Of a DNA stretch of 64,000 nucleotides, positions 2,023-54,981 are shown in pieces. Both the position numbers and the translations under genes were made by a program. A model generated the notes under the pieces. It made no database searches and was not told the DNA's origin. It was given only the letters and a program-made list of their open reading frames with translations. The DNA comes from Jaminaea rosea (Eukaryota > Basidiomycota > Exobasidiomycetes > Microstromatales), in contig NW_020289977.1 of the NCBI RefSeq assembly GCF_003144245.1, positions 992,001 to 1,056,000 of the forward strand. The letters run 5' to 3'. Within the stretch, counting starts at the first letter, position 1; every line of letters starts with the position of its first letter.

Positions 2023-4578
2023 TCATCCACCTGTCACGCTACGTCGTCGCACACCACGCAGCTCCTCCACCAACAGACCATGCAGTGCTCTTTCCCCCTT
2101 CCCATGCACCTCGACGCCATGCATCGTGACGCCGAGCGACCCGCTGAGGGTGGATCGCCAGGGCAGCTGAACGGATAGATGTGACGGGTACGAGAGGGTC
2201 AGGTGCGCAAGGACAATCTTCCGCGTGGCTGAAGCGGAGGCTCCCTCGCCGTCGCCAAGCTGAGGCTCAGCAGGTACCTCGACTGTTACCGTCGCACTTC
2301 CCCTCAACGAGCGGATAGCTCGTGCGGCCGCGGGCTCACCTGGCCCCTCACCGCTGACCGCCTGGCCGGCCTGGCCCGCAGCTGTTGGGGCATAGAGTAG
2401 ATCCTTCATCCAAACAGCCGCATTGGCGATACTCTGGGCGGGGTGCATTTCGAGCTCTCCTTTCAAGTCCTGCTCATTTTTGCTTCCTGCCGCGGGGGAG
2501 GAAGCGCTGTGCAGTGCCTGCTGAACAACGCTTCGGACGTGGAAGAGGAAGGAGCTGTAGTGCAACAGCGCCACGAGCGGCATGAGGGTAGGCGCATGGA
2601 TCCAGGGGTCGAGACGGGCGCGCTTTTGCGTACTTGACGATTCGGGCTGGCTTGAGGCAGCGCCAGCTTTCTTGCTACCTGCATTCGAAGCTGAAGATGC
2701 TGCGTCTCCGGGGGGCTTGCGAGGTTTGTCCTTCTCCCTCTCCTTCTCAGCTTCTGCTCGGGCGGCGGAGGCTGCTGCTGTTGCTCGTTCTTGGTAGCGG
2801 CGAACAAGACCCAGACGCATGAGGGTGGACATGAGAGAGACGTACGCCGAGCGGGCGGGCTCGGGCTCTCGCGCACTTTCGCCTTCCTCGCTGCCTTCCT
2901 CTTTCGAGGCATCAAAATCGACCATCTCAAGGCGCATAGCAAGCGTACCGTGCCGTTTGAGTCCAGTCTCCAATCTAGACGTCGAAGCAGCAGCATTCCC
3001 CGCCAGCCTCACAAGCACCGAGTCGTCCGAGCTCTCGCAGCTCACCACCCCTTGCGATGCCAGCAAGCGCGCTTCGGCGGCTACGTCCTCGAAGAGCTCC
3101 CGGTCGACGAGCTCGCGCTGTGCTTGTCGCAATTGAGCGTCGATGCTACCTTGCACTTCGTTGTCCTCAGCATCGTCTTCTGGGAGCGTGGAGGCGGAGC
3201 GACTGAGCACCTTTCCCTCAGTGTCAAGCGTGACCAGCGAGACTTTGAAGCGCTTCGCGACCCGCGAAGAGAAAGTGAGCTTGACGGCCGATGACGTTGG
3301 CGCCGAAGCGGACGGCTTTGAGTCCTCTGGCTTCTTGACATCTTTCTCCTCGGTCTCGCTATCCTTATCTTCCTTCTCTCCAGCATCTCTGGCAACATAA
3401 GCCAGCCCCCTCCTCGCATATGCCGTCCGCGCCTCAGGCACGGCAAAGCCGATCCAAGCGTCCTGCTCTCCCTCATCCGCCCGTTGCACCTGCGCTTGAT
3501 ATTGCGATCGACCGGGTCGACCTGGCGTGATGCCCCAGCCGCGGGCTTGCGCTTCCCGGAGGGTGGACCAGTGATGGCGGGTCGCAGAGGTCGCCGAGGT
3601 CGAGGTCGAGGCTTCCCCTGCATCGCCTCGCCCATCGTCATCATCCAGAAGCCTTGCTCCTGTTCGCAAGATGTTCACCACGCTCCGCATCGTCTGTCTC
3701 TTTTGTGCAAGAACAAGCTGCGTCTTCCTTGCATATTCGTCCCGCTCTGCCTCGTTGGAGAACTCGAGATTGCCTGCAGGATCTTGTCGCTCTCGCTCTG
3801 CAAAATCCTCGTCATCCTCATCTCCGGGTGCTGCTTGTGATCTTTGCTTTTCCTTGACTTCGATACGCTCAATGGCCGTGAGGGCCACACTCGCTGGCTC
3901 GAGGCCGAATTCGGCTTCTACAGCTGCCGCGCTCCCTGGTGGAGGCCCTTGTGGCTGTTGAGAAGCCTGACCAGGCTGTCCCTTAGCGGGCGTGGCTTTG
4001 CCGCTCTCACTCGCCGTTGAAGAGACTGCGCCAGGTGATGGGGCCCTTGAAGCTGCATTGGACGATGTGGCAGCCTTTGCTGGGTCGAGGTGTCCTTGCT
4101 GAAGGAGCGAAGCGCGTGATCGATGCCCTGCGACGAGGAGGCTGACGAGTGCCTGCGAGGAGTACAGAGATTGTTGGGCGATCTGAAGCCGACCCATCAT
4201 TTCCTCTTTGAGCTGAACAAAATCCTCCATGCTCATCGGTCTGGTGTCTAGCAGGGAGCCAGCGTCCTTGTCTGCCGCCTGTGCGTCGTGCTCGTCGTCA
4301 ACCTTGCTCGCGGCACCCTTGTCGCGGTCCTCTTCCCCATGAGCCCAACCGATCTTGATTGCGCCTCCGACACCATTGGTAGCATCCTGTTCTCCGGTCG
4401 CCTCTGCCTGATCATCATCCTCCTCATCCCGCAGGTCCTTTAGTGAGAACTTGGAAAAGTCGCCCCTCTCGGTCCACAGTCTGTGTAACCGCTGCGACAG
4501 CGGCTGAAGGGCTGCGACATCCTTTGTGGACGGATTTGAGGAAGGAGGCTCCAGCGCAAGCTTCAATGACTGAACCAT
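2023..4578 (-). CDS. Mediator complex subunit 17 (Med17/Srb4-like)
   Basis: Single exon of 851 residues. The N-terminus contains SLKLALEPP, the opening typical of fungal Med17, followed by a SRRLHRLW-like helical region with acidic linkers, then a helix with VSLLVAGHR that resembles the family's LVSLLLS helix. The centre contains WGITPGRPGR and AWIGFAVPEA, and the C-terminal half is predicted folded with disordered Ala/Ser/Lys insertions. Med17 is a head-module scaffold of Mediator that contacts RNA polymerase II and is essential in yeast. The frame stays open to 4746, but the codon there is TTG; the first ATG is at 4578, immediately before the conserved motif, so that start is used. It lies head-to-head with the methyltransferase gene. 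The family call rests on remembered motifs and a profile search would settle it. Confidence 0.7.
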   Translation of the reverse strand: MVQSLKLALEPPSSNPSTKDVAALQPLSQRLHRLWTERGDFSKFSLKDLRDEEDDDQAEATGEQDATNGVGGAIKIGWAHGEEDRDKGAASKVDDEHDAQAADKDAGSLLDTRPMSMEDFVQLKEEMMGRLQIAQQSLYSSQALVSLLVAGHRSRASLLQQGHLDPAKAATSSNAASRAPSPGAVSSTASESGKATPAKGQPGQASQQPQGPPPGSAAAVEAEFGLEPASVALTAIERIEVKEKQRSQAAPGDEDDEDFAERERQDPAGNLEFSNEAERDEYARKTQLVLAQKRQTMRSVVNILRTGARLLDDDDGRGDAGEASTSTSATSATRHHWSTLREAQARGWGITPGRPGRSQYQAQVQRADEGEQDAWIGFAVPEARTAYARRGLAYVARDAGEKEDKDSETEEKDVKKPEDSKPSASAPTSSAVKLTFSSRVAKRFKVSLVTLDTEGKVLSRSASTLPEDDAEDNEVQGSIDAQLRQAQRELVDRELFEDVAAEARLLASQGVVSCESSDDSVLVRLAGNAAASTSRLETGLKRHGTLAMRLEMVDFDASKEEGSEEGESAREPEPARSAYVSLMSTLMRLGLVRRYQERATAAASAARAEAEKEREKDKPRKPPGDAASSASNAGSKKAGAASSQPESSSTQKRARLDPWIHAPTLMPLVALLHYSSFLFHVRSVVQQALHSASSPAAGSKNEQDLKGELEMHPAQSIANAAVWMKDLLYAPTAAGQAGQAVSGEGPGEPAAARAIRSLRGSATVTVEVPAEPQLGDGEGASASATRKIVLAHLTLSYPSHLSVQLPWRSTLSGSLGVTMHGVEVHGKGERALHGLLVEELRGVRRRSVTGG

Positions 4579-4756
4579 GAGCTGCAATGAAGCAGTCAGT
4601 AGTCGCCTAGAGGTCGAGTGGAGAAGGAGGGAAGCTCCATCGATTGCTTCGACGGAACTGGACTCGACGTCGCGTCCAGTCGAGGTCGACTCTCCCCTTC
4701 CGTTTGCTCTCTGGACTTCCTTCAGTTCTTCCTTTCCTCTCCTCAACCAGCCTCAG
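4579..4756. promoter_or_regulatory. Short divergent promoter, Med17 / NTM1
   Basis: Only 178 bp separate the Med17 start codon (minus strand) from the N-terminal methyltransferase start codon (plus strand). The interval must contain both 5' leaders and promoter elements. No TATA box or CCAAT motif stands out. Any claim of co-regulation is inference. Confidence 0.5.
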
Positions 4757-17991: not shown

Positions 17992-19225
17992 ATGTCGCCG
18001 CCCCCGCCTCATTCACATCCAGAAGAGGATGAGTCAGGCCCGTCAACGTCCAAAGCACCCGTATTCAAGAAGCGATCGCGTCCGGCAAAGGCAGCTGCCA
18101 TTGTCAAGCCCGCAGGACCCGCCAATGGATCTAGTGGAGAAGCTGCCGAGCACAGTGAAGACGATGAGGACGACGGCGACGAAGAGTGAGCATATGTCGG
18201 GCATCCGACCAAACAGGAATCGTCACTGACCAGCCCATTCAACTCTCCGCTGCAGAGTATCCGTCGCCGACCTCATCGCCCTGCGCAATCTTCAACGAAA
18301 GCCCACGGGCATCGAGCTTGAGAAGCTCAACAAGGGTTTGCGGAAGAAGAAGAAGAAGGCAAAGAAGGAGGGACCCAAGACTGAAGAGGATCGATGGAAG
18401 GAGCAGATGGAAAAGGGAGGGCTAGTCAGACCAGGATCGCTTAAAGCACCAGCAGGCAAGGACGATGATGACGATGAGGAGGAGGGGGGAGCAGCGTCAG
18501 GCAACAAGGCGCGTAACCGCCTGGCTCGACAGGACAACTTTCAAGGAGAGACCAATGCCATTGATGTCGACAAGCACATGATGGCCTACATCGAGGAAGA
18601 GATGCGCAAGCGCCGAGCCGCACTCGGTGAAGGCGGCGACAACGCAGGGGCCGCTGGGGACACCGCCAGCCAAGCTCGCGCCGTCCTCTCCAATCCCGAA
18701 GACGAGCTATACAAAGTAGCAGAGAAATACACGCGACTCCAACAAGAAGCGCGCAATGCTGCCCTTGCAAGCAAGCTCCTCTCCACGCGCTCTCGACCAG
18801 ACGACGAAGAAGGCGAGGGAAGCGTCGGTCTCTCCAGCGCAATGTTGTCTGGCATTCCAGAGGTAGAGCTAGGCATGGATTCGCGCTTGAAGAACATCGA
18901 AGATACGGAAAGGGCGAAGAGGCTCATGCGGGAGGAGAGGGCTCAGCGACCGAGACGCAATGATGAGGAGGGTGAGAGTAGTGAGGCTATGCTGGCCAAG
19001 GCAAGATTCTTCTCGCCGAGGAACCAGACGAGGAGCGATGCGCAGGCGCTAGCGGAGGCGAGGGCTGAAGCTTCGGGCCAGCCGCCGCCTCAGGCGAGCT
19101 CCAGCGGTGGTGGTGCTGGACAGAAGAGGTCGCATTCTGGTGGTGATGATAGGAGGAATATGGCGAGCGATGAGTTGGTGATGCAGCGCTTCAAGAAGCG
19201 GCAGATGAATCAGATGAAGAGATGA
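17992..19225 (+). CDS. Tls1/C9orf78 (HCA59) family spliceosome-associated protein
   Basis: Two exons: 17992-18185 and 18256-19225, with a 70 bp intron; 387 residues. After an acidic disordered N-terminus comes VADLIALRNLQRKPTGI, then a basic KKKKK stretch, FQGETNAIDVDKHMMAYIE, EDELYKV, and the diagnostic block MLSGIPEVELGMDSRLKNI followed by a helix. These match human C9orf78 and fission yeast Tls1 in order. The family binds the Brr2 helicase and spliceosomal C complex and affects splicing choice, in yeast including telomere-related transcripts. The split codon GA|A across the intron restores the frame into the conserved part. It is divergent from the flippase gene. Confidence 0.9.
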
Positions 19226-19338
19226 GGCGGGCTCGAAAGAATGGGAAGCAAGAGAGATGGACGGCGACACGGCGAGAAGGTGAGGTTCATGCGCAATGTC
19301 GCGTTCTTAGCCAGCAAGCCAGCAGCCATTCATCCGTG

Positions 19339-19970
19339 TCATCCTTGGCTCTCTTCAATCTTCTGTTCTCGAGCGAGACGCGCGAGTCAGTAACTCAGAG
19401 ACGGTCAGCAGCTTCAGCAGGTGTCTCGAGAATACATGTGCAGCATGTCAACGCACTCTGATGATGAAGGGCAGCAGAAAGCGGCGCCACTGATCGTAGC
19501 ACTGCGAGGGAGACTTGCTAATTTGTGCGGCCACATCGTTGCACTGAGTCTTCGAAGGGCTACCGAGCATGGCCTTGAAGAGGACTAGCCTCTGCTGCGA
19601 CTGTCAAGGGAGCGGAGGGTGCGGAGCAATTGAGGCGATCTGCTGCTGTAGGCCTTCAGATGTGGTCAAGGGCGCTCACTGTCCAGCTCTTCGCCTTGCC
19701 CGAGCCGGCTTCGCCATTCGAGCTGTTCGATTGCCCCGTCTTGACGCGCTTCTTGCGCTTCTTCTGCGGCGTAGGCTTCCCGGACTCCTCATCCTCCCAG
19801 TCGCTTTCGTCCTTCACCTTCTTGCTCGATCGCGACATGGACTTTTGTGGCTTCTTCGAGGAGGCTCCCACCGCGTCGTTGTCATCGTACTCTTCTCCTT
19901 CGTCGCTCTCATTGTCGTCACTGTAGGCTTGGTTGGAGGGCTCGTACTTGTCAGAGTCAGTCTCACTCAT
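19339..19970 (-). CDS. Small SANT/Myb-like protein, copy A
   Basis: Three exons on the minus strand: 19970-19680, 19600-19457 and 19362-19339, with introns of 79 and 94 bp; 152 residues. The first exon is acidic (DESDEGEEYDDND) with a nuclear-localisation-like KKRKKRVK and ends in KSWT. Exon 2 supplies exactly 48 residues of a SANT/Myb-like repeat (RLVLFKAML, NDVAAQI, QCYDQWRRFLLP), and exon 3 adds KIEESQG. The spacing of Trp, Phe and QW fits a single three-helix SANT fold. A nuclear DNA- or chromatin-binding role is inferred from the fold and the basic patch; the specific function is unknown. It is the first of four related genes sharing intron positions. Confidence 0.72.
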
Positions 19971-20457
19971 GTTGGGATCAGGGATGGATAAAGAGAAGGA
20001 CAGACCATCGTCTCAGCCTGCCTGCTCTGTTTTTGCCAGCTCATCGACGCCCTCCTCAACAACGGCAGCAAATTGCTCCCGTGATGGTGAGCGGCAAGCT
20101 CAGATGCCTGGCACGGCATCTTATCATGCTCAGGTCATGGAGAGGCAGCGAGATGCGTGAGCGAGGAAGAGATTGTTGCAGGGAGAATTGGCGGGCAGGA
20201 TGGACGATGGCGCGACGACCGTGGATCAAAGCTTCATCATGGGGAGATGGACGACGATATTAGACGATGCGACAAGCAGAGCATGGAGGAGAGATTCACG
20301 ATGAAGTGAGGCAGCGAGCGAGCGCAGAACGAGCACGTGAGGTGGTAGAATGTCTGTCGAGCATGTGGCTAATGACATGACGGTGACCGTATCGTCTACT
20401 GGTAGTGCCGAGACGTCCTCGCTCCCTCGAACTTGGGCCCTCGACGCTGCAGACTGC
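19971..20457. other. Spacer between SANT copies A and B
   Basis: About 490 bp lie between the copy A start codon and the last exon of copy B, both on the minus strand. The interval should contain the promoter of copy A. No protein-like frame was seen. Confidence 0.35.
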
Positions 20458-20898
20458 TCACATCTCGTCGATCTTCTGCGGCACGCATGGCACAACGCCG
20501 CGTCAGCTCGTGTCGCATGAACCCAAAGCTGAGGACGCACCTTGAGCAAAGCAGGCAGAAGTTGTTGTCGCCACTGGTCGGAGCATTGCGTAGATGTCCT
20601 GCCAATTTGCTCGGCCACATGGTTACACCGCACCTTTGCTGCACCGTGAAGCATGGCTTGGAAGAGCTGTTTCTTCATCTGAGGCTGGGGAGAGGTGAGG
20701 ACGGGTTGCAAGCATGAGCCGGTGCCCTTGCGCTGGGGGAATAGCAAGACTGCTGCTCACCGTTCAACCACCTGCCTTGCGGGGCGAGCCGTTGCTGCTT
20801 ACAGCCTCTGCCTTGGTAGCGCGCTTGCGTTTCTTGTTGGGCGAGGTCTGCGTGGGAGTCATCTTGGCAGCTTTGACCTCCTTGGCGGGCGTGGCCTT
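20458..20898 (-). pseudogene. Broken SANT/Myb-like gene, copy B
   Basis: Read on the minus strand, recognisable segments are 20898-20761 (KKRKRATK linker), 20684-20541 (48-residue SANT core: LFQAMLHG, NHVAEQIGRTSTQC, DQWRQQLLPALLK) and 20475-20458 (KIDEM then stop). Exon borders and core length equal those of copy A. The codon matching the first SANT tryptophan (TGG in copies A and C) is TGA at 20766-20764, two codons before the donor site, so the protein would end before its domain. No acidic first part beginning with Met was found in frame; the only upstream in-frame ATG is at 20862. The call is pseudogene, unless an unseen splice path skips the stop. The core itself is otherwise intact, suggesting recent inactivation or read-through; that is inference. 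Confidence 0.6.
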
Positions 20899-21294
20899 CT
20901 GTGGCGGGGATGGAAGGATAGACGAGAGAGGGAAGCCATGCGAAGATGGAGCAGGTCTGCCCCCAGAAAGGGAGCAGACCTCGCTTTGTCAAGTCGAGCG
21001 TCCGTTCCTTGATGAGAACGGGAGCGGCACCTCATTGCTGATGAGATAGCGAGCCCGCCCGACCTCATCTCATACCTCGCTTTACGAAGCTGGGACATCG
21101 AAAAGGCGAAGGCAAATGATGGGAAGGAAGGACCACGTAAAAGCCGTCGAGACAAATAATCTGTTTGATTGGGCTGTCGACAGAGTCGCTGAGAATTCAC
21201 ACAGGCGATGCGAGGAGAGCTGAAAAGGTTGCAGCGCACATATGACGAGGTGATGACGGAGGACGAGTGAGGCTGCTCAATGACAGCGGGCAGC
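20899..21294. other. Spacer between SANT copies B and C
   Basis: About 400 bp. A frame starting with MSQLRKAR near 21098 (minus strand) precedes a possible GTATGA donor and could be a remnant first exon of copy B, but the phase does not fit the next segment. Nothing else was recognised. Confidence 0.3.
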
Positions 21295-21834
21295 TCAGCA
21301 GCTGTCCTCGATGAACTACAAGGGGAGTGGAATAACAGCGAGGGGTCAGCGCCTTCCTGCTTCTGCATTGAGATCCTCTGAAGCTGGCCACCGAGCGCCG
21401 CACTTGCCTTGATGATCTTCTTCTCCATGGTGTCGCGCCAAATAGCGTAGCACAGCTTCTTAGTCTTGCCCGTCTTCCGAGTGAGCTCGTCCCAGTCTAT
21501 CTCGCTAGGCTGCTTGACGTGATGCTTGAAGACGGCCAACTTGGCTTCTTTCTACGCGACGGGTAGGCGATGAATGTGGCAAGGGTCAGCCTGGTGATTT
21601 TGAGGTTTGGTGGCCGGCTCTGCCCTTGGTCTGCGTACTGGCCGTCCAGACACCATTTCCGGTCGTGGGCTTTCGCTTGCTCGACGAGGATGAAGCAACG
21701 CCGTAGTCATCCTCTTCGTCGTTGACAGGCTTGCGTTTCTTACCTCTGGGCGATGGTGAGCTCTTGACATCTGGCTTCTTATCCTCATGCGAGACACCGT
21801 CGCGCTCGTTGTCGATGTACTCGGTGTCTGACAT
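21295..21834 (-). CDS. Small SANT/Myb-like protein, copy C
   Basis: Three exons on the minus strand: 21834-21639, 21547-21408 and 21315-21295, with introns of 91 and 92 bp; 118 residues. It starts MSDTEYIDNE, similar to MSETDSDKYE of copy A, has the basic KKRKP patch, and ends exon 1 at GVWTA. The SANT-like core (KLAVFKHHV, EIDWDELTRKTGKTKK, CYAIWRDTM) again spans 48 residues after WT, and the last exon reads FIEDSC. The second intron uses a GC donor (GCAAGT) with a normal AG acceptor. The first splice junction was placed to give AKAKLAVF, which restores the same spacing as copy A; a TAG three to four bases upstream is an alternative acceptor. Nuclear role inferred only from the fold. Confidence 0.65.
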
Positions 21835-22166
21835 GTTTGTGTTCGTATGTGATGCGAGCAAGTCTTGTAGGAGATGAGGAGGTTGAGAGTCACTTGAAGG
21901 CGTCGGCCCTTGACCAGATTGGAAGGAGGCTGTGAGAGCGGCAAGTGATTGGGATGGAGCAGCTGCTTCATTGAGCTCTCGGGCGGCCCGTTTCGTTTGG
22001 AGACCAGGGCCAGGGTTCTGGTGAGGGGCGAGCGGACGTTGGCTGCCCTCATCGAGCTCACCGCCGAGCTGAAGATTGGCTAGGTCATTTCCCCGCCAAC
22101 CTCCTGCGCCTGACACCACAGGACTGCGAGTGAAGTTGCAGGCACACCTGACCTCTGCCTTCCAAC
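21835..22166. promoter_or_regulatory. Divergent promoter between SANT copies C and D
   Basis: The 332 bp separate the start codons of copies C (minus) and D (plus). The frame of copy C is open upstream across most of it but contains no ATG, so it is treated as non-coding. Confidence 0.4.
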
Positions 22167-22616
22167 ATGGTCCCGAAGACTTCCGTGAAAAGTGAAGCTA
22201 CCCTGAGTCACGGCAGCAAGAGAAAGAAGCGGGACGAGGACGAGGATGAATTTGATGGGGATAAGGATGGGCCTCACTCCTTCACAGTGAGTCTGATCCC
22301 AGCGCTTGGGCTCACGTGAGCCGAAAGAGTAGAACCTGACGCTCTCTGCCGCCCTTCAACGTGCATAGCCCGAAGAGGACCTAGTCATCTTCGACAATCA
22401 ACACAACCTCGATGCGGCTGCTCAGATCCTGGGCCTCAAGGTGGACCAGATCAGGCGTCGTTGGAAGAAGCGTCTGTTGCCCAAGATCCGCGCGGTGAGT
22501 CCAGCGCGAAGCACGAGGAGCCATCATCGTAGGACGACTACCCGCAGCGATGCTGATTCTTTGCTTTGCTGTTCCTGGCATTGCAGGCCATTGCTGCCGG
22601 GACGGTGCAGGGTTGA
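22167..22616 (+). CDS. Small SANT/Myb-like protein, copy D
   Basis: Three exons: 22167-22286, 22369-22494 and 22587-22616, with introns of 82 and 92 bp; 91 residues. The basic/acidic linker (SKRKKRDEDEDE) ends in HSFT, where other copies have a tryptophan before Thr. Exon 2 gives a shortened SANT core of 42 residues (PEEDLVIFDN, AAAQILGLKVDQIRRRWKKR, LLPKIRA), and exon 3 reads AIAAGTVQG. Exon order, splice points around Thr and after the third helix, and the LLP motif match copies A and B, although this copy is on the opposite strand. Function unknown; a DNA-binding role is inferred from the helix-turn-helix-like core and basic residues. Confidence 0.65.
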
Positions 22617-22782
22617 TAGCTGAGGAGCCAAGTCGAGACGCGAGGTTGCAGCGGACAGAGGCTGCGAGGCGAGTGGAGGGCGAAGGCGGACTGAGAGGTT
22701 GATGCAGCTCCATTTGTACATCCATCCATCCATTCTATCCTATCATTTTCATCTCCATTGCGACTCGAGCGTCTGAGTGTAG

Positions 22783-24294
22783 ATGTCTACTAGGCGCAGC
22801 GCTCGAGCTGCTGCCGTGGCGTCAAAGCGCATAATAGCCGCCAGCCCCAGCGATGATGAGGCGGACGAAGCGGCCAGCGCGTCGAGCTCAGCAGCTTCGA
22901 TGTCCTCCGAGGGAGACGCGACGGAGGATGAATGGCAGCCAGAGAGACGTGGCAAGGGAAAGAGGCAGATGTCAAGCGACTCAGAAGAAGATGAAGAGGC
23001 AGGCAAGGAGCTCGGCGAGTCCAAGCCGAAGGCTGCCAAGGCTCAGCAATCAGCAAAGGGCAAGCGACTGCGCCGAGGAAAGAGCTCAGCACGGCCTGCC
23101 CGTGCATCGACGTCTGCGTCTGCCGACCTGGACGGAGACGATGTCGATTACGACGACGAGATGGACGAAGAGATGGAGCGCGAGGTCATGACCAAGCAAG
23201 CCGCGGATGCATGGGCTCAGGTGCGGGCGAAGAAGAAGGCCAAGCAGACAGGCGAGCCTACATCCAACGGCGAGAATGCCGAGCCTTCATCCTCCTCAAC
23301 TGCAGCATCAGCGGCAGCGTTGCCCAGCGCAGCTGTCACATCCTCCTCAAGGCCATCAACTGGCGGCAAAAGCAAATCCCTCAACTCGTGGCTTGGTCTA
23401 CCATCTCTCCCCAACCCCACCTCACCAATATCCGCGCGGGTGATGGACCGCGACTCCCTCTTCATCGGCTTCGTCTACCCAATTACTTCCTCAAGCCCTG
23501 CTGCGTTGGCGCGCATCCTGGACCACCTGTCCAACGAGGTACACCCCTCACTCCCCTCAAACATTTTCCCCACTGCCTTCTCTCACTTGGACCCGAGGAG
23601 AAGAGGTAGCTCGCACGATGTACAAGCATGGCGATGTTTAGCGCTCAAACGCGGCCGTGACGGGTTGGGCGGGCCGAACGACTATGGTCTAGAGGAAGGA
23701 AGCGACGATGATGGGGAGCGCTGGGGTGGAGATCGAGTGCTGAAAGCCATGCGCGAAGTAGGTGCGGTGGATCTGCTAGTCGTGGTCAGCAGGTGGTACG
23801 GTGGCACCAATCTGGGACCGGTGCGCTTCGATCATATGAGGACGTGCGCGAGGGAGGCTTTGAAGGCACATATGGATGAGGAGGCGCTTGGACCGTTGAG
23901 AGAGGAGTTGAGTGGATTAGACGGGGAGATTGCGCGCTTGCGAGGGCAGGGAGCTGCAACAGCTGCCTCGTATGCGGACCTGGACGATCTTGATAAAGCG
24001 CAGCGCCTTGTGACGGCCAAGAAGAAGACGGTCGAGCTGTTGGCCAAGCGCAAGGCAGCAGCATCGGCGCCGACCAAGCCAGTCTCACCGCAGGCTTCTC
24101 ATGATGAAGCGCTGTCGAGCCAAGGGCCGGATCAGGCTGTCATTACCCCTCAGAAGGCCACTGCGACCAGAGAGGGGCCTGAAAAAAGCGACGCTCATGA
24201 TACCTCAGAAGTGGCGCACGCAGCTCATGAAGGACGAGACGGCGGCGATGTCGGAGGACAAGATGTCTTGGCCGGATGGGACGATCTAGCCTGA
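22783..24294 (+). CDS. IMPACT-domain (UPF0029) protein
   Basis: Single exon of 503 residues. The first 210 residues are charged and disordered, with acidic and Lys-rich stretches. An Impact_N domain occupies about residues 215-365: RVMDRDSLFIGFV, ARILDHL, DDGERWGGDRVL, and the highly characteristic VVVSRWYGGTNLGPVRFDHM. The remaining region is a Lys/Ala-rich possible coiled coil and a disordered tail ending AGWDDLA. Classical Yih1/IMPACT proteins carry an RWD domain before this domain and restrain the Gcn2 kinase; no RWD is visible here, so that role should not be assumed. Its 3' end converges on the chitin deacetylase gene. Confidence 0.85.
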   Translation: MSTRRSARAAAVASKRIIAASPSDDEADEAASASSSAASMSSEGDATEDEWQPERRGKGKRQMSSDSEEDEEAGKELGESKPKAAKAQQSAKGKRLRRGKSSARPARASTSASADLDGDDVDYDDEMDEEMEREVMTKQAADAWAQVRAKKKAKQTGEPTSNGENAEPSSSSTAASAAALPSAAVTSSSRPSTGGKSKSLNSWLGLPSLPNPTSPISARVMDRDSLFIGFVYPITSSSPAALARILDHLSNEVHPSLPSNIFPTAFSHLDPRRRGSSHDVQAWRCLALKRGRDGLGGPNDYGLEEGSDDDGERWGGDRVLKAMREVGAVDLLVVVSRWYGGTNLGPVRFDHMRTCAREALKAHMDEEALGPLREELSGLDGEIARLRGQGAATAASYADLDDLDKAQRLVTAKKKTVELLAKRKAAASAPTKPVSPQASHDEALSSQGPDQAVITPQKATATREGPEKSDAHDTSEVAHAAHEGRDGGDVGGQDVLAGWDDLA

Positions 24295-42500: not shown

Positions 42501-45500
42501 CTCGAGGAGACCGTCCGATCCCACCTCGACGCCGCCTCCAAGCGTGGCGGTGAGTTCCCTGCCTCCCGCATCCGCAAGGTAGTCGAGTCTTTCCTCCGCG
42601 AGAGCGTTGACGTAGCTGTGCGTGGCCAGGTCGAGACCACGCTCGCCCCCTTCACCGACCTTCTGGACAGCTACGCCGGTGGCCTCCAGGCTCACGAGGC
42701 TGCAGCCCTCGCCGCACTCCTCGAGCAGTACTACGCCGTCGAGTCGAGGTTCACCGGCGAGGCCGACATCGTCCTCGAGCTGCGCAAGGAGGCAGAAGAC
42801 GATCTCTCCAAGGTCGTCGCACAAGTCCACTCTCACCTCGGACTCTCACGCAAGAATGGCCTTGTCCTCGCCATTCTGGACAAGTACGTCGCCAAGACGC
42901 CATACCTCACTCGCGGCGCCGAGGGCTCCAAGATGCTTGAGGTCTTGAACAAGCTCGCCACCCTCGAGGGCAAGGCCGTCGCTCCCGTCGCCCTCAAGGC
43001 TCGTGAGGTGGCCATTGCCGCTCACCTGCCCAGCCTCGAGGACCGCAAGGCGCAGATGGAGGGCATCCTCAAGGCCTCGGTATCGTTCAGCAAGTACGGT
43101 GACGACGAGGAGTACCACACGCCCAACGTCAATGTCCTTCGCGAGCTCGCCGACTCGCAGTATTCCGTCTACGACGTCCTGCACTCCTTCTGGGGCTCGC
43201 GCAAGCCTGCCATCGCCTTTGCCGCATTGGTCACTTACGTCCTGCGTGCCTACCGCGCCTACGATCTCGTGCACTTTGACTACGCCGTTGAGGACTTCAG
43301 CGCCGAAGATCGAGCCGTCCTCCGCTGGCAATTCCAGCTCGCCAATGCTGGTGAGCCTGCGGCTGAGCGTAAGGCCTCGGAGACGGACCTCGAAGCTCTC
43401 AAGAAGAAGAACAATGCCGTGCCCGAAGTTCGCGAGGGTCTCATGACTAGCTGTGGCATCATTTCGGATCTCTCTGACGTCCTGCCCAAGGTCTGCCGCA
43501 CCTTCAAGGGCGCTAAGCCCTCGCATCCCGTCAACGTCATCAACATCGCCATCACAGATGACGCGGAGGTCAACGACTCGCAGGCTCGCGACGCTTTCGT
43601 CTCATACACTAACAAGTTCGCCAAGAACATTGAGGCTGCCGGCGTGCGCCGAGTTACCTTCCTCCAGTGCCAGCCTGGCCAATACCCGTGGTTCACGACG
43701 CTGCGCCGCTCCGAGGACGGCAAGTGGGAGGAGGAGCGTGCTATCCGCAACATCGAGCCCGCTCTCGCCTACCAGCTCGAGCTCAGCCGTCTTGTCAAGA
43801 ACTTCGAGATCGTGCCCGTGCCCATCACCTCGTCCGCCATCCACCTCTACTACGCTCGTAGCCGCCAGAACCCTTCGGACATGCGCTTCTTCGTTCGTGC
43901 ACTCATTCGTCCGGGGCGCATCACCAGCGGCAACGCGACCGACTTCCTTGTTGCTAGCACCGACAAGATGCTCTCCGATGTCCTTGACATGCTGGAGGTC
44001 GCTGAGGGTCGCCCCGACATGCGTGGGTCGGACGACAACCACATCTTCCTGTCCTTCCTTTACGACCTTCCCGACGAAGTCGAGTTCGAGAAGGTGTCGG
44101 AAACTCTTGCTGGCTTCGTCGAGCGTCACGGTCCTCGCCTCTTCCGCCTGCGCGTCACCAACGCCGAGATCCGTCTCGTCCTCACTCGCAAGGACGGTTC
44201 GAGGATGCCCCTGCGCTTCTTCATCTTCAACGAGACTGGCTTCCAGGTTCGTTTCGAGGGCTACCAGGAGCACGTCAACGACTCTGGCCGCACCAACCTC
44301 AAGTGCCTCTTTGGCTCTGGCCGCCTCAATGGCGAGAACGCCACCTTTGCCTACGAGCCCCGCGTCGCGCTCCAGACTCGCCGTGCTCGCGCTCACGCTC
44401 TGCAGACGACCTTCTGCCACGACCTCGTCGCCGTCTTCCGCGAGGCCCTGCGTGCATCTTGGAAGGGCGTCCCTGCTGCCCCTGAGGACCCGCTCTCGGC
44501 CGTCTCTGAGCTTGTTCTCGACGAGGAGGAGGACAACCTGCGAGAGACTCAGCGACCGGCCGGCACCAACAAGATTGGCATGGTCGCCTGGCTGATCACC
44601 GCCAAGACTCCCGAATACCCCGAGGGACGCCAGCTCGTCATCATCGCCAACGACGTCACAATTCAGGCTGGTTCCTTCGGTCCCGCAGAGGACCGCTTCT
44701 TTGCTGCTGCCTCGAAGCTTGCTCGTCAGCGCAAGATCCCTCGTCTCTACGTTTCTGCCAACTCGGGTGCTCGCATCGGTCTCGCTACGGAGCCTCTGGA
44801 CCTCTTCCAGGTCAAATTCGTCAACAATGATCCGACCAAGGGCTTCGAGTACCTCTACCTCGACGACGCGGGCATGGAGAAGCTCAACGCCAAGGGAGCC
44901 GCGGCTAGCGTCGTTACCGAGGCTACGGTGGCGACTGACGGTAAGCGTCACCACGTCATCACCGACGTCATTGGACTGCAGCAGGGACTCGGTGTCGAGT
45001 GTCTCTCCGGCTCTGGTCTCATTGCCGGCGAGACGTCGCGTGCCACGCAGGAGATCTTCACCACTACCATCGTCACCGGTCGCTCCGTCGGTATCGGTGC
45101 CTACCTCGCTCGTCTCGGTGAGCGTGTCATCCAGGTCGAGGGGTCGCCCATGATCCTCACGGGCTACCAGGCCCTCAACAAGCTGCTTGGTCGCGAAGTC
45201 TACACCAGCAACCTGCAGCTCGGTGGCCCTCAGATCATGTACCGCAATGGCGTCTCGCACCTGACTGCCGCAGACGACCTGGCCGCCATGAAGAGCTTCG
45301 TACGCTGGCTGTCATACGTTCCGTCGGCTCGCCATGCCGCCCTGCCTCTGAGCCTCAACAACCAAGACGGGTGGGATCGTCCCGTCGGCTACACTCCTCC
45401 CAAGGGCCCCTACGACCCACGCCACCTCCTCGATGGCACCCTCGCCGAAGACGGCAAGACGTGGCTCAGCGGTATTTTCGATAAGGGGTCGTGGCAGGAG

Positions 45501-51045: not shown

Positions 51046-53191
51046 ATGGCCGTCGATGCCGATGCTGCCGGAGCGGGGGGGAGCCAGTGGGGTCGAAGTG
51101 AGTAGGACCAAGGCAGCAATGCTCCGTGAGAGGCCAATGCCGATGCGATGGTCGTTGATCAAGACTGTCATGCCACTTCCCGCTCACAGTCTTGATTGCT
51201 GGAGGGACAGACTGGCCTAATCTTGGGAGGAAGAAGGGAGCGGGAGAGCAGCCGTGAGTACCCTCCCCAGCAATCAAGAGCATTGGAGCTGCGGTCAATC
51301 AGTTCCTCCAGCTGACTTGCTTCTTTGCCAATATTGACGCCGCACAGAGCCTCACCTGATCTCCCAATGCCTCACATCCTCCGAGAAGTTGCCAACTTTC
51401 AATTCACCAAGATCTTCTCGGGACACAGCGCATGCCACGCCGTCTTTGTCACGGTGCAGGGCGACGCATTCGTCTACGGGCGCAATGAGAAGGGGCAATG
51501 CGGTCAGTACCGCGCTTGATCACCAATCCCTATTGTCCATTCTCACGTCGTACGACATCACCTCTTGCCCGCGCGCCTGCAGGCCTACCCATCTCCCCGC
51601 TCGAAGGCCAGCAAGGCGGCATCTCAGTAGACAGTCCCACCCACCTTTCCCGTTCGCGCAACTTCCTTCCCGCCCTCGACTCCTCCCCCAAAGGCGACAT
51701 AATCCACGCCGCATGCTCACGCTCGCACACGCTCCTCGTCACTCGCTCCGGTCAAGTCTACGCTTCAGGGTCAAACGCCAACTCACAGATCGCCCTGCCT
51801 CGCTCAGGCGACACACAGATCTTCACGCGCATCGAAGGGGCACCATGGTCTAAAGGATCCGACCCTGTGATCCAGGTTGCGGCAGGGTTGACTTTCAGCC
51901 TCTTCCTCACCGCCTCTGGCAAAGTCTACGCGTGCGGTTCAATGGAGAAGGGTCAGCTAGGCAACGGGCGCACCGGAGAACACTTTGTCAGCGGTAATCG
52001 TATGGCTTTCGCTGAAGAGTCTACCCCCACACAAGTCAAAGCCGGTGGGCTGGGCGAGAAGCACATTGTGGCTATCTCATGTGGACAGCAGCACTCCATT
52101 TGCCTCGACAAGGACGGCTTCTGCTACGTGTGGGGATTCGCAGGGTATGGCCGTTTGGGGCTAGGAGACGCACAGGATCGCTATGCCCCTGCTTTGGTGC
52201 CGCATTTTGCAAGGGAGAATGTGGCCTCCCGTGCAGCGGACATTGTGGCTGGTCCGACCAGTACAGTGGTCATCGACAATTCAGCGACCTACTACCTCGC
52301 AGGCAAATGGAAGACGAGTGGTGATGGTGGATCAGGACAGGGATGGACCTCCTTCCGGTACATGCAGTCGCTGATGGGCTGCAAAGTCCGCAAAGCCGCT
52401 CTGGGTGGGGTGACCTTGTTCGCTATTGCGGACGAGACGGATCCTGGCCTGCATGGGAAGGAGGCGACGATGAATGTCGCGTGGGGGCAGAGTGCTGGAA
52501 ATGGGGAACTTGGCCTTGGAGAGGGCAAGCCGAGGAGCGCTACGCTGCCCATCAGATGTGAGACGTTGGACGGTGTGGGGTTGATCGATGTTGCCGCAGG
52601 ACAGAACACCACCTTTTGTGAGCGAAGAGAGCGGCGCGACCTGAGGAGATCATACAATGCTAACCACCAGCTGCCCCTCAATCGCCCACAGTCCTCGCCC
52701 GCCCATCAGGATCAGTCTATTCGGACTTGCCCCGTTTCCCATTCGCAGTCGACTCCTCCTCGGAGGTCTGCATGGGCTGCTCGAAAGACGACCCAAGCAA
52801 AGCCGACTCCCTTCTCGAGTGCGACAAGTGCGAGGACGCCTGGCATCTCGGCTGTCTCACGCCTCCGCTTGAGGCCGTACCAGACGGAGAATGGTTCTGC
52901 CCGCGCTGCATCAAAGAGGCGGAGGATGTCGCGAGTGGTGGCGCCAGCAACGGGAGCGCTGATCGGGGTCAAGAATCAGATGAGGAGGGGGAGCCTGCCG
53001 CGAGTGGACGTGGGCGTGGACGCGGACGTGGCAGGGGACGTGGGAGAGGCGCTGCCAGCGGCGTCAAGAGAAAGGCCAGTGATGACGGAGACGACGATGA
53101 CGGCGATGATGAGCACGTCGCAAGCCGCGGCAGAGGCAGGGGCCGTGGACGCGGGCGCGGGGGAGGGCGAGGCAGGGCAAAGAAGGCATAA
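51046..53191 (+). CDS. RCC2-like propeller protein fused to a PHD finger
   Basis: Five exons: 51046-51097, 51190-51253, 51348-51502, 51583-52617 and 52692-53191; introns of 92, 94, 80 and 74 bp; 601 residues. The N-terminus [15 protein letters not shown] and the following [42 protein letters not shown] and [16 protein letters not shown] are RCC1-type repeats closest to RCC2/TD-60. After the last blade ([20 protein letters not shown]) comes a PHD finger with [23 protein letters not shown] and WFCPRC, in the C4HC3 pattern, then an acidic linker and a Gly/Arg-rich tail of GRGRG units. PHD fingers read histone H3 tails and RCC1 proteins bind chromatin or small GTPases, so a chromatin role is inferred. 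Reading phase agrees at every junction. Confidence 0.83.
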
Positions 53192-53287
53192 AGCTGCCGA
53201 AGTTAGGATCAAGAGTCACTCAAGCGGGCCAGCTGTTTAAATCTGTCGGGCTCCTTGCGCCCATTTCACCGTTGTCCATGCATCTAA

Positions 53288-54457: not shown

Positions 54458-54981
54458 TCTTGACGACGATTGAGCGACACTGTGGGCTTCTGTCTTGGTC
54501 TGAGACGAGTCGATGGAAGCTCAATCTGAATCGACGCGTTCGAAATGCGGGGTACGGGGTAAGGGTCTTGCTCAACTCCGCGCCTTACGGGCGGCGTGCA
54601 ATCGCCGAGACGAAGCAGGCCGGTCGCCGGGGAGGCAAGCGGCAAGCATCCTCAGTACCTTCTTTCATTGAATGCCATAAATCGCACCCGAAGTGATTCT
54701 CGTCTCGAAGAGATGGTACCTCGCGCCACTGCTCGCAACACCGTGGCGGCTTCTTGCCCTGTTGCTCTCAGAGCTCGGGGGGGGGGCGCCTTCAGACCAC
54801 GTGGCGCTGGTCCGTGCTCGTAAGCTCGCATTAGACCCTGCATTCTCGGCCTCGCCGTTGTCCGTTGCCTGTCGGTTGTTGAGTTCTTCCTGCGCATCAA
54901 AGCTTCTCGAGGACGGCCAGCTCTGCCTTCTTTCCGTCTCTCCCATCCAAACTCCATCCACTCAATCATCCATCTGCAAGC
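54458..54981. promoter_or_regulatory. Divergent promoter, mitochondrial carrier / O-methyltransferase
   Basis: About 524 bp separate the two divergent starts. A run of about ten G residues lies near 54780. No known element or coding frame was recognised. Confidence 0.4.

Follow-up and report, generated by a model that had tools for sequence, protein, structure and literature searches.

Four small gene-like units sit between an ORF with a Hep_59 match and an ORF with a UPF0029 match in the window analyzed here (the whole 64-kb stretch of DNA), which raises the question of whether they are a family of genes and, if so, of what kind. A sequence-only reading had described them as four diverged copies, A to D, of a small SANT/Myb-like gene with one exon plan. 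We followed this up within the window and in public structure, family, and paper collections. We favor, with moderate confidence, the view that A to D are a local cluster of paralogous genes encoding minimal one-repeat Myb proteins.

Gene models and splice sites

Copies A, B, and C lie head to tail on the minus strand, and D lies on the plus strand, divergent from C (Table 1). The outer coordinates proposed for the four-copy group, 19339 to 22616, were confirmed. The divergent start codons of C and D are 332 bases apart (21835 to 22166), and this interval may hold a two-way promoter common to both.

Table 1. Exons of copies A to D and the two ORFs flanking the cluster
Feature	Position	Strand	Content	Basis or remark
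Hep_59 ORF	18338-19225	+	flank of cluster	Pfam match
Copy A exon 1	19680..19970	-	charged tail with KKRKKR, KSWT at end	translation, composition
Copy A exon 2	19457..19600	-	48-residue putative Myb core	translation, alignment; three predicted helices
Copy A exon 3	19339..19362	-	tail KIEESQG and stop	acceptor choice
Copy B exon 1 to donor GTGAGC	20761..20862	-	KKRKR linker, in-frame stop at conserved tryptophan position	
Copy B alternative exon 1	20803..20862	-	open frame without tryptophan	donor GTAAGC from 20802
Copy B exon 2	20541..20684	-	48-residue putative Myb core	leave-one-out E 2e-13
Copy B exon 3	20458..20475	-	tail KIDEM and stop	translation, acceptor choice, tail motif
Copy C exon 1	21643..21834	-	KKRK linker, VWT at end	alternative 21639-21834 with donor GTACGC
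Copy C exon 2	21408..21551	-	48-residue putative Myb core	translation; three predicted helices
Copy C exon 3	21295..21315	-	tail FIEDSC and stop	behind GC-AG intron (GCAAGT)
Copy D exon 1	22167..22286	+	KRKKR linker, SFT at end	translation
Copy D exon 2	22369..22494	+	42-residue helix-turn-helix-like core	translation, Pfam, alignment
Copy D exon 3	22587..22616	+	tail AIAAGTVQG and stop	acceptor choice
UPF0029 ORF	22783-24294	+	flank of cluster	Pfam match

At these coordinates, A, C, and D read as open three-exon models with phase 0 junctions. The shared exon plan claimed earlier is canonical in A and D, with phase 0 GT-AG introns (79 and 94 nt in A; 82 and 92 nt in D) and proteins of 152 and 91 residues, but C fits it only with GC donors or an unusual acceptor. 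At both of the junctions proposed for C, the donors are GC (GCCAGT and GCAAGT). Alternatively, its intron 1 can use the donor GTACGC with the acceptor AAAG (phase 1), leaving the core length unchanged, and this first intron is ambiguous. The two introns of C (21548 to 21642 and 21316 to 21407, minus strand) seem to be either two GC-AG introns or one GC-AG intron plus one with an AAAG acceptor. The C protein has 118 residues; counting the WT of exon 1, its tryptophans lie at positions 63, 84, and 102.

The core after WT has the lengths described earlier, 48 residues in A, B, and C and 42 in D, and the four tails were also confirmed. The proposed linker ending, (W/F)T, was found in A, C, and D, but B has a stop codon and a threonine before GTGAGC, where A and C have Trp-Thr and thus the first tryptophan of the domain. 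The sequence-only reading had not mentioned this stop. In its span (20458 to 20862), B otherwise has the layout of A and the same hexamers at both donors (GTGAGC and GTGCGT). With the upstream donor GTAAGC, B would encode 73 residues from the sole in-frame ATG, outside the size range of 91 to 152 residues given for the group and holding for the other three proteins; it may have an extra 5′ exon. Since B could be a pseudogene or a variant without the tryptophan, the "four genes" of the sequence-only reading may be three, with A, C, and D open and B stopped at a key tryptophan.

A CTRAY branch point was present at the expected place in six of the eight introns, the exceptions being intron 1 of A and intron 1 of B, compared with 9.1% of 3401 YAG sites on both strands (binomial P = 1.3e-5); the acceptors were picked by eye, for frame and not for branch points, and this figure is therefore indicative only. 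In the interval 40 to 130 nt downstream of the core, a single YAG acceptor with a branch point occurs in A (the one used for exon 3) and in D, and two occur in B and in C. The tails of A, B, and C have the motif xI[DE][DE] in common, which follows 3 of 3400 YAG sites on both strands, all three being these tails; because the motif was derived from them, the statistic is post hoc. The D tail lacks the motif.

A 34-nt direct repeat with 74% identity (20802 to 20835 in B and 21708 to 21741 in C) surrounds the basic patch of both copies and is perhaps a remnant of the duplication that reaches beyond the core exon. When 1404 six-frame segments of at least 25 residues were scanned with a profile, no further copy in the window was accepted. 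Among the matches listed, the best after A to D (42754 to 42906, minus strand; E = 0.017) and the next (54588 to 54767, minus strand; E = 0.041) were attributed to chance, their better matched stretches being 13 and 16 residues long. The former lies antisense to a 1962-residue ORF, which we take to be acetyl-CoA carboxylase. Elsewhere in the window, an ORF with RCC1 repeats (51498 to 53240, plus strand; PF00415; E = 3.1e-32) overlaps an ORF with a PHD finger in a different frame (52727 to 53191, plus strand; PF00628; E = 3.1e-10); the two may belong to a single RCC1-PHD gene, with an intron between them. An ORF with a match to the Mediator subunit Med17 is found at 2023 to 4746 on the minus strand (PF10156; E = 7.7e-23).

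Identity and fold of the domain

A profile built from WT, core, and tail of the four copies was compared with the PDB. The best match was 1h8a_C (E = 2.6e-10), a value summed over several Myb repeats, with a best single-domain i-E of 0.00073 among three chains listed. Of the 28 chains at E values up to 1, 27 are Myb/SANT proteins, and the control with reversed rows, whose reversal was verified (E values up to 10), retrieved one unrelated chain (E = 7.1) and no Myb. The profile of the four cores without flanks reached Myb at 4.6e-5.

Individually, the copies give much fainter signals. None of the four reached a Pfam cut-off, the best being B with Myb_DNA-bind_6 (18.7 bits versus the required 22.9; E = 0.002); A matched the same family at an E value of 0.11, full-length C had no match at E values up to 5, and D matched best to HTH_28 (E = 0.0029) and HTH_8. 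With domain-only rows, two of the four matched Myb_DNA-bind_6 at E values up to 5 (best, 0.0011). Against the PDB, A alone retrieved Cef1 and CDC5L (E = 0.17 to about 0.2) behind an unrelated acidic-tail match (0.024), the sole match of C was a Myb transforming protein (E = 0.052), and D found Myb3 (E = 0.2) behind two unrelated matches. The top match of D, 8vd6 ("CAP REPEAT"; E = 1.5e-8), was rejected, as it sums five near-identical short repeats with i-E values of about 95 to 140 each. In prokaryote genomes, 293 pattern matches to the A core gave no confirmed relative. For the group, the profile match with its clean reversed control supports the earlier claim of one Myb/SANT repeat per protein, and the domain appears to be a Myb-type repeat that falls below the Pfam cut-off in each copy.

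The three aromatic positions of the repeat read W-W-W in C, W-C-W in A, stop-C-W in B, and F-none-W in D, with spacings of W-x20-W-x17-W in C and W-x20-C-x17-W in A. The third helix carries a net positive charge in every copy (+3, +2, +5, and +8 in A, B, C, and D), which is consistent with DNA binding. The copies had been proposed to be DNA or chromatin binders. Most chains matched by the profile are DNA-binding Myb repeats or Cef1/Cdc5; an ADA2-like chain appears only at an E value of 0.45. Together with the basic helix 3, this makes "DNA binder" the better fit for the predicted proteins, and a histone-binding SANT domain seems less likely.

Structure models of the A and C cores, each from an alignment of four rows, agree with a helical domain. 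Three helices were predicted for the A core without WT (pLDDT of 87.3; range of five models, 61.1 to 87.3) and for the C core (mean pLDDT of 76.6). Foldseek returned no match at an E value of 0.001 or better for either model. For A, the top match was a chain of CASP8-associated protein 2 (E = 0.25; probability, 0.97), accompanied by RAP1 (query TM score, 0.79) and many homeodomains; for C, bacterial sigma region 4 was on top, and none of the best 50 matches listed was named Myb. The fold comparison on its own thus supports a helix-turn-helix without singling out Myb.

Kinship of the copies and rival readings

The cores of A and B are identical at 22/48 residues, those of A and C at 12/48, and those of B and C at 8/48. 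In local core alignments, none of 2000 shuffles reached the scores of A-B (120), A-C (57), A-D (37), or B-D (38), two reached that of B-C (40), and 1092 reached that of C-D (19), which is thus at shuffle level. In global alignments, the C-D score was reached by 4 of 2000 shuffles and those of the other five pairs by none. Leave-one-out profiles (WT, core, and tail) were run against the 1404 six-frame segments plus the spliced copy and recovered A at 8.4e-20, B at 2e-13, and C at 1.3e-5. The unspliced frame of C reached only 0.062, which indicates that the flanking exons supply added signal. D was recovered at an E value of 0.11, behind one unrelated frame matched by chance. With a core-only profile of A and B, C (0.044) and D (0.39) both ranked below a frame matched by chance (0.016); with a core-only profile of A, B, and C, D was at rank 15 (E = 5.3). 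Judged by these comparisons, A and B are certain to be one family, and the membership of C is well supported once WT and tail are included in the spliced model. Membership of D is possible, on grounds of gene structure rather than sequence. The relationship claimed among all four copies is therefore firm for A and B and good for C, but D does not pass the leave-one-out comparison.

D could instead be an unrelated, separate small helix-turn-helix gene that adjoins the A-B-C family by chance, and we regard this as a substantial possibility, if short of probable. Beyond its poor showing with the leave-one-out and A-B-C core profiles, the shuffle-level alignment with C, a core six residues shorter, and best Pfam matches to HTH_28 and HTH_8 and not to Myb all agree with such an origin. 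On the other hand, D resembles the other copies in its phase 0 intron directly after (W/F)T, its tiny exon 3, and its KRKKR linker; its local alignments with A and B exceed all shuffles, and Myb3 is among its five PDB matches. Another rival reading holds that the cluster is largely decaying, in which case A and perhaps C would be working Myb genes beside pseudogenes (B and perhaps D). We think this unlikely, while giving it some weight. B has the stop at the conserved tryptophan, lacks the acidic N-tail in the models tried, and has a third-position G+C content of 0.58 in its core compared with 0.75, 0.81, and 0.76 in A, C, and D, and the introns of C require donors other than GT or an acceptor other than YAG. 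Against decay, the B core is free of frameshifts and stops, the donor hexamers equal those of A, the upstream donor leaves B open, and its exon 1 has a third-position G+C content of 0.71, inside the range of the others (0.62 to 0.78). In a simple Nei-Gojobori count over the 48 core codons, the A-B pair has a dN/dS of 0.29 (dN = 0.41; dS = 1.43), which also argues against decay; the ratio is about 1 for A-C (dN = 0.92; dS = 0.89) and about 0.7 for B-C (dN = 1.18; dS = 1.70). This suggests constraint in A-B only, the A-C and B-C comparisons being near saturation on 48 codons. For B itself, the stop and the low core third-position G+C content fit decay, and the intact core and donors fit function.

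Two further readings seem much less likely. The copies might stem from dead insertions of a PIF/Harbinger-type DNA transposon, as relics of its Myb/SANT accessory genes. The available part of one report describes a separate Myb/SANT DNA-binding gene in Nuwa-type Harbinger elements (PMC12730594), but the Pfam matches of the 15 window ORFs scanned (of 74 ORFs of at least 150 residues) include no transposase, and the intron positions are common to the copies. Moreover, none of the three inverted repeats of at least 16 nt in the interval from 19226 to 22782 (arms of 16 to 21 nt) neatly brackets a gene, the arms being located inside or between genes. We consider a transposon origin very improbable. 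The units might also not be genes at all but chance open frames joined by chosen splice sites; the tiny exons and the noncanonical sites of C do leave freedom of choice. Such a coincidence would have to account for the branch points, the tail motif, the A-B dN/dS, and the Myb profile match with its clean reversed control, and it strikes us as the most far-fetched of the explanations. A cluster of paralogous one-repeat Myb genes is the reading that we carry forward.

Proposed role and described relatives

We propose that the locally duplicated genes would encode small nuclear one-repeat Myb DNA-binding proteins, with B possibly decaying. The linkers consist to 78 to 85% of D, E, K, R, S, T, P, G, N, or Q, and the basic patch described earlier was confirmed in all of them (KKRKKR in A, KKRKR in B, KKRK in C, and KRKKR in D). 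Four or more K/R residues in a row occur in 4/4 linkers compared with 10 of 739 overlapping 40-residue segments of nine long ORFs presumed to be coding (seven with a Pfam match and two unscanned). We take these runs to be nuclear localization patches, in which case each protein would have a disordered N-tail with a nuclear localization patch, followed by a single three-helix repeat whose basic third helix may bind DNA weakly by itself, in dimers, or together with a partner. Weak binding is to be expected of one repeat by itself, so the proteins may dimerize, recruit partners, or act as competitors in the manner of plant R3 MYBs; in the nucleus they may serve as small DNA-binding regulators or compete with larger Myb proteins. 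The positions used for base contacts in c-Myb repeat 2 do not seem to be conserved here, and a c-Myb-like site is therefore not expected. An old local duplication would have been followed by fast divergence of the copies, with inversion of D, if it is a member. In B, the first tryptophan would have been lost, and the copy would now be either in decay or maintained in truncated form via the upstream splice donor. More speculatively, and with little confidence on our part, the cluster could be a fast-evolving mini-Myb family (one repeat plus a nuclear localization tail) under changing selection, e.g., following quickly changing DNA targets such as satellites and mobile elements or competing with full-size Mybs, in which one copy outlives the loss of its first-tryptophan codon via an upstream donor shift.

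The cluster proteins resemble the Myb repeats of c-Myb, Myb3, WER, and Cef1/Cdc5 in a profile match across the whole repeat, a QC..W-type third helix, and, in A and C, the aromatic spacing. They differ in having one repeat each, in falling below Pfam cut-offs, and in the second tryptophan, which is a cysteine in A and B and missing in D. The sequence-only reading recognized no described family with this architecture, but small one-repeat Mybs have already been described. Of the 20 MYBs in the basidiomycete Pleurotus ostreatus, 14 are of the 1R type, the 20 proteins span 87 to 1011 residues, and multi-exon genes start with a phase 0 intron, according to the available part of that report (PMC6073129). 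These 1R MYBs are like the cluster in their single repeat and phase 0 first intron and unlike it in their varied gene structures, and the same part of the source mentions no tandem cluster. The single-repeat R3 MYBs of Arabidopsis, given as 77 to 112 residues in the portion of the source available, likewise consist mostly of one Myb repeat (PMC3986520). Unlike them, the cluster proteins have a charged N-tail and a basic patch, and neither the bHLH-binding signature of plant R3 MYBs, [D/E]Lx2[R/K]x3Lx6Lx3R, nor the WxM motif was found in any of the four; a route via a bHLH partner is therefore not supported. BZcon1 is also a Myb-type protein of a fungus, a SANT/Myb regulator that is, in the available text, much longer (402 residues), two-repeat, and intronless (PMC4132175). 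Among the matches listed in the literature on Myb/SANT in smuts, basidiomycete Mybs, and one-repeat Mybs, there was no description of the A-D cluster, which is weak evidence.

The presence of one-repeat MYBs in a basidiomycete and in Arabidopsis makes the cluster a known kind of gene, here in an unusually small and fast-changing form. Annotation can easily overlook small three-exon genes whose last exons have five to nine codons and whose domains score below Pfam cut-offs; here, exon plan, tail motif, and group profile in combination recover such a family. If expressed, the copies would be a compact case of one-repeat Myb divergence, and copy B would be a case of a stop codon inside a domain beside an alternative donor.
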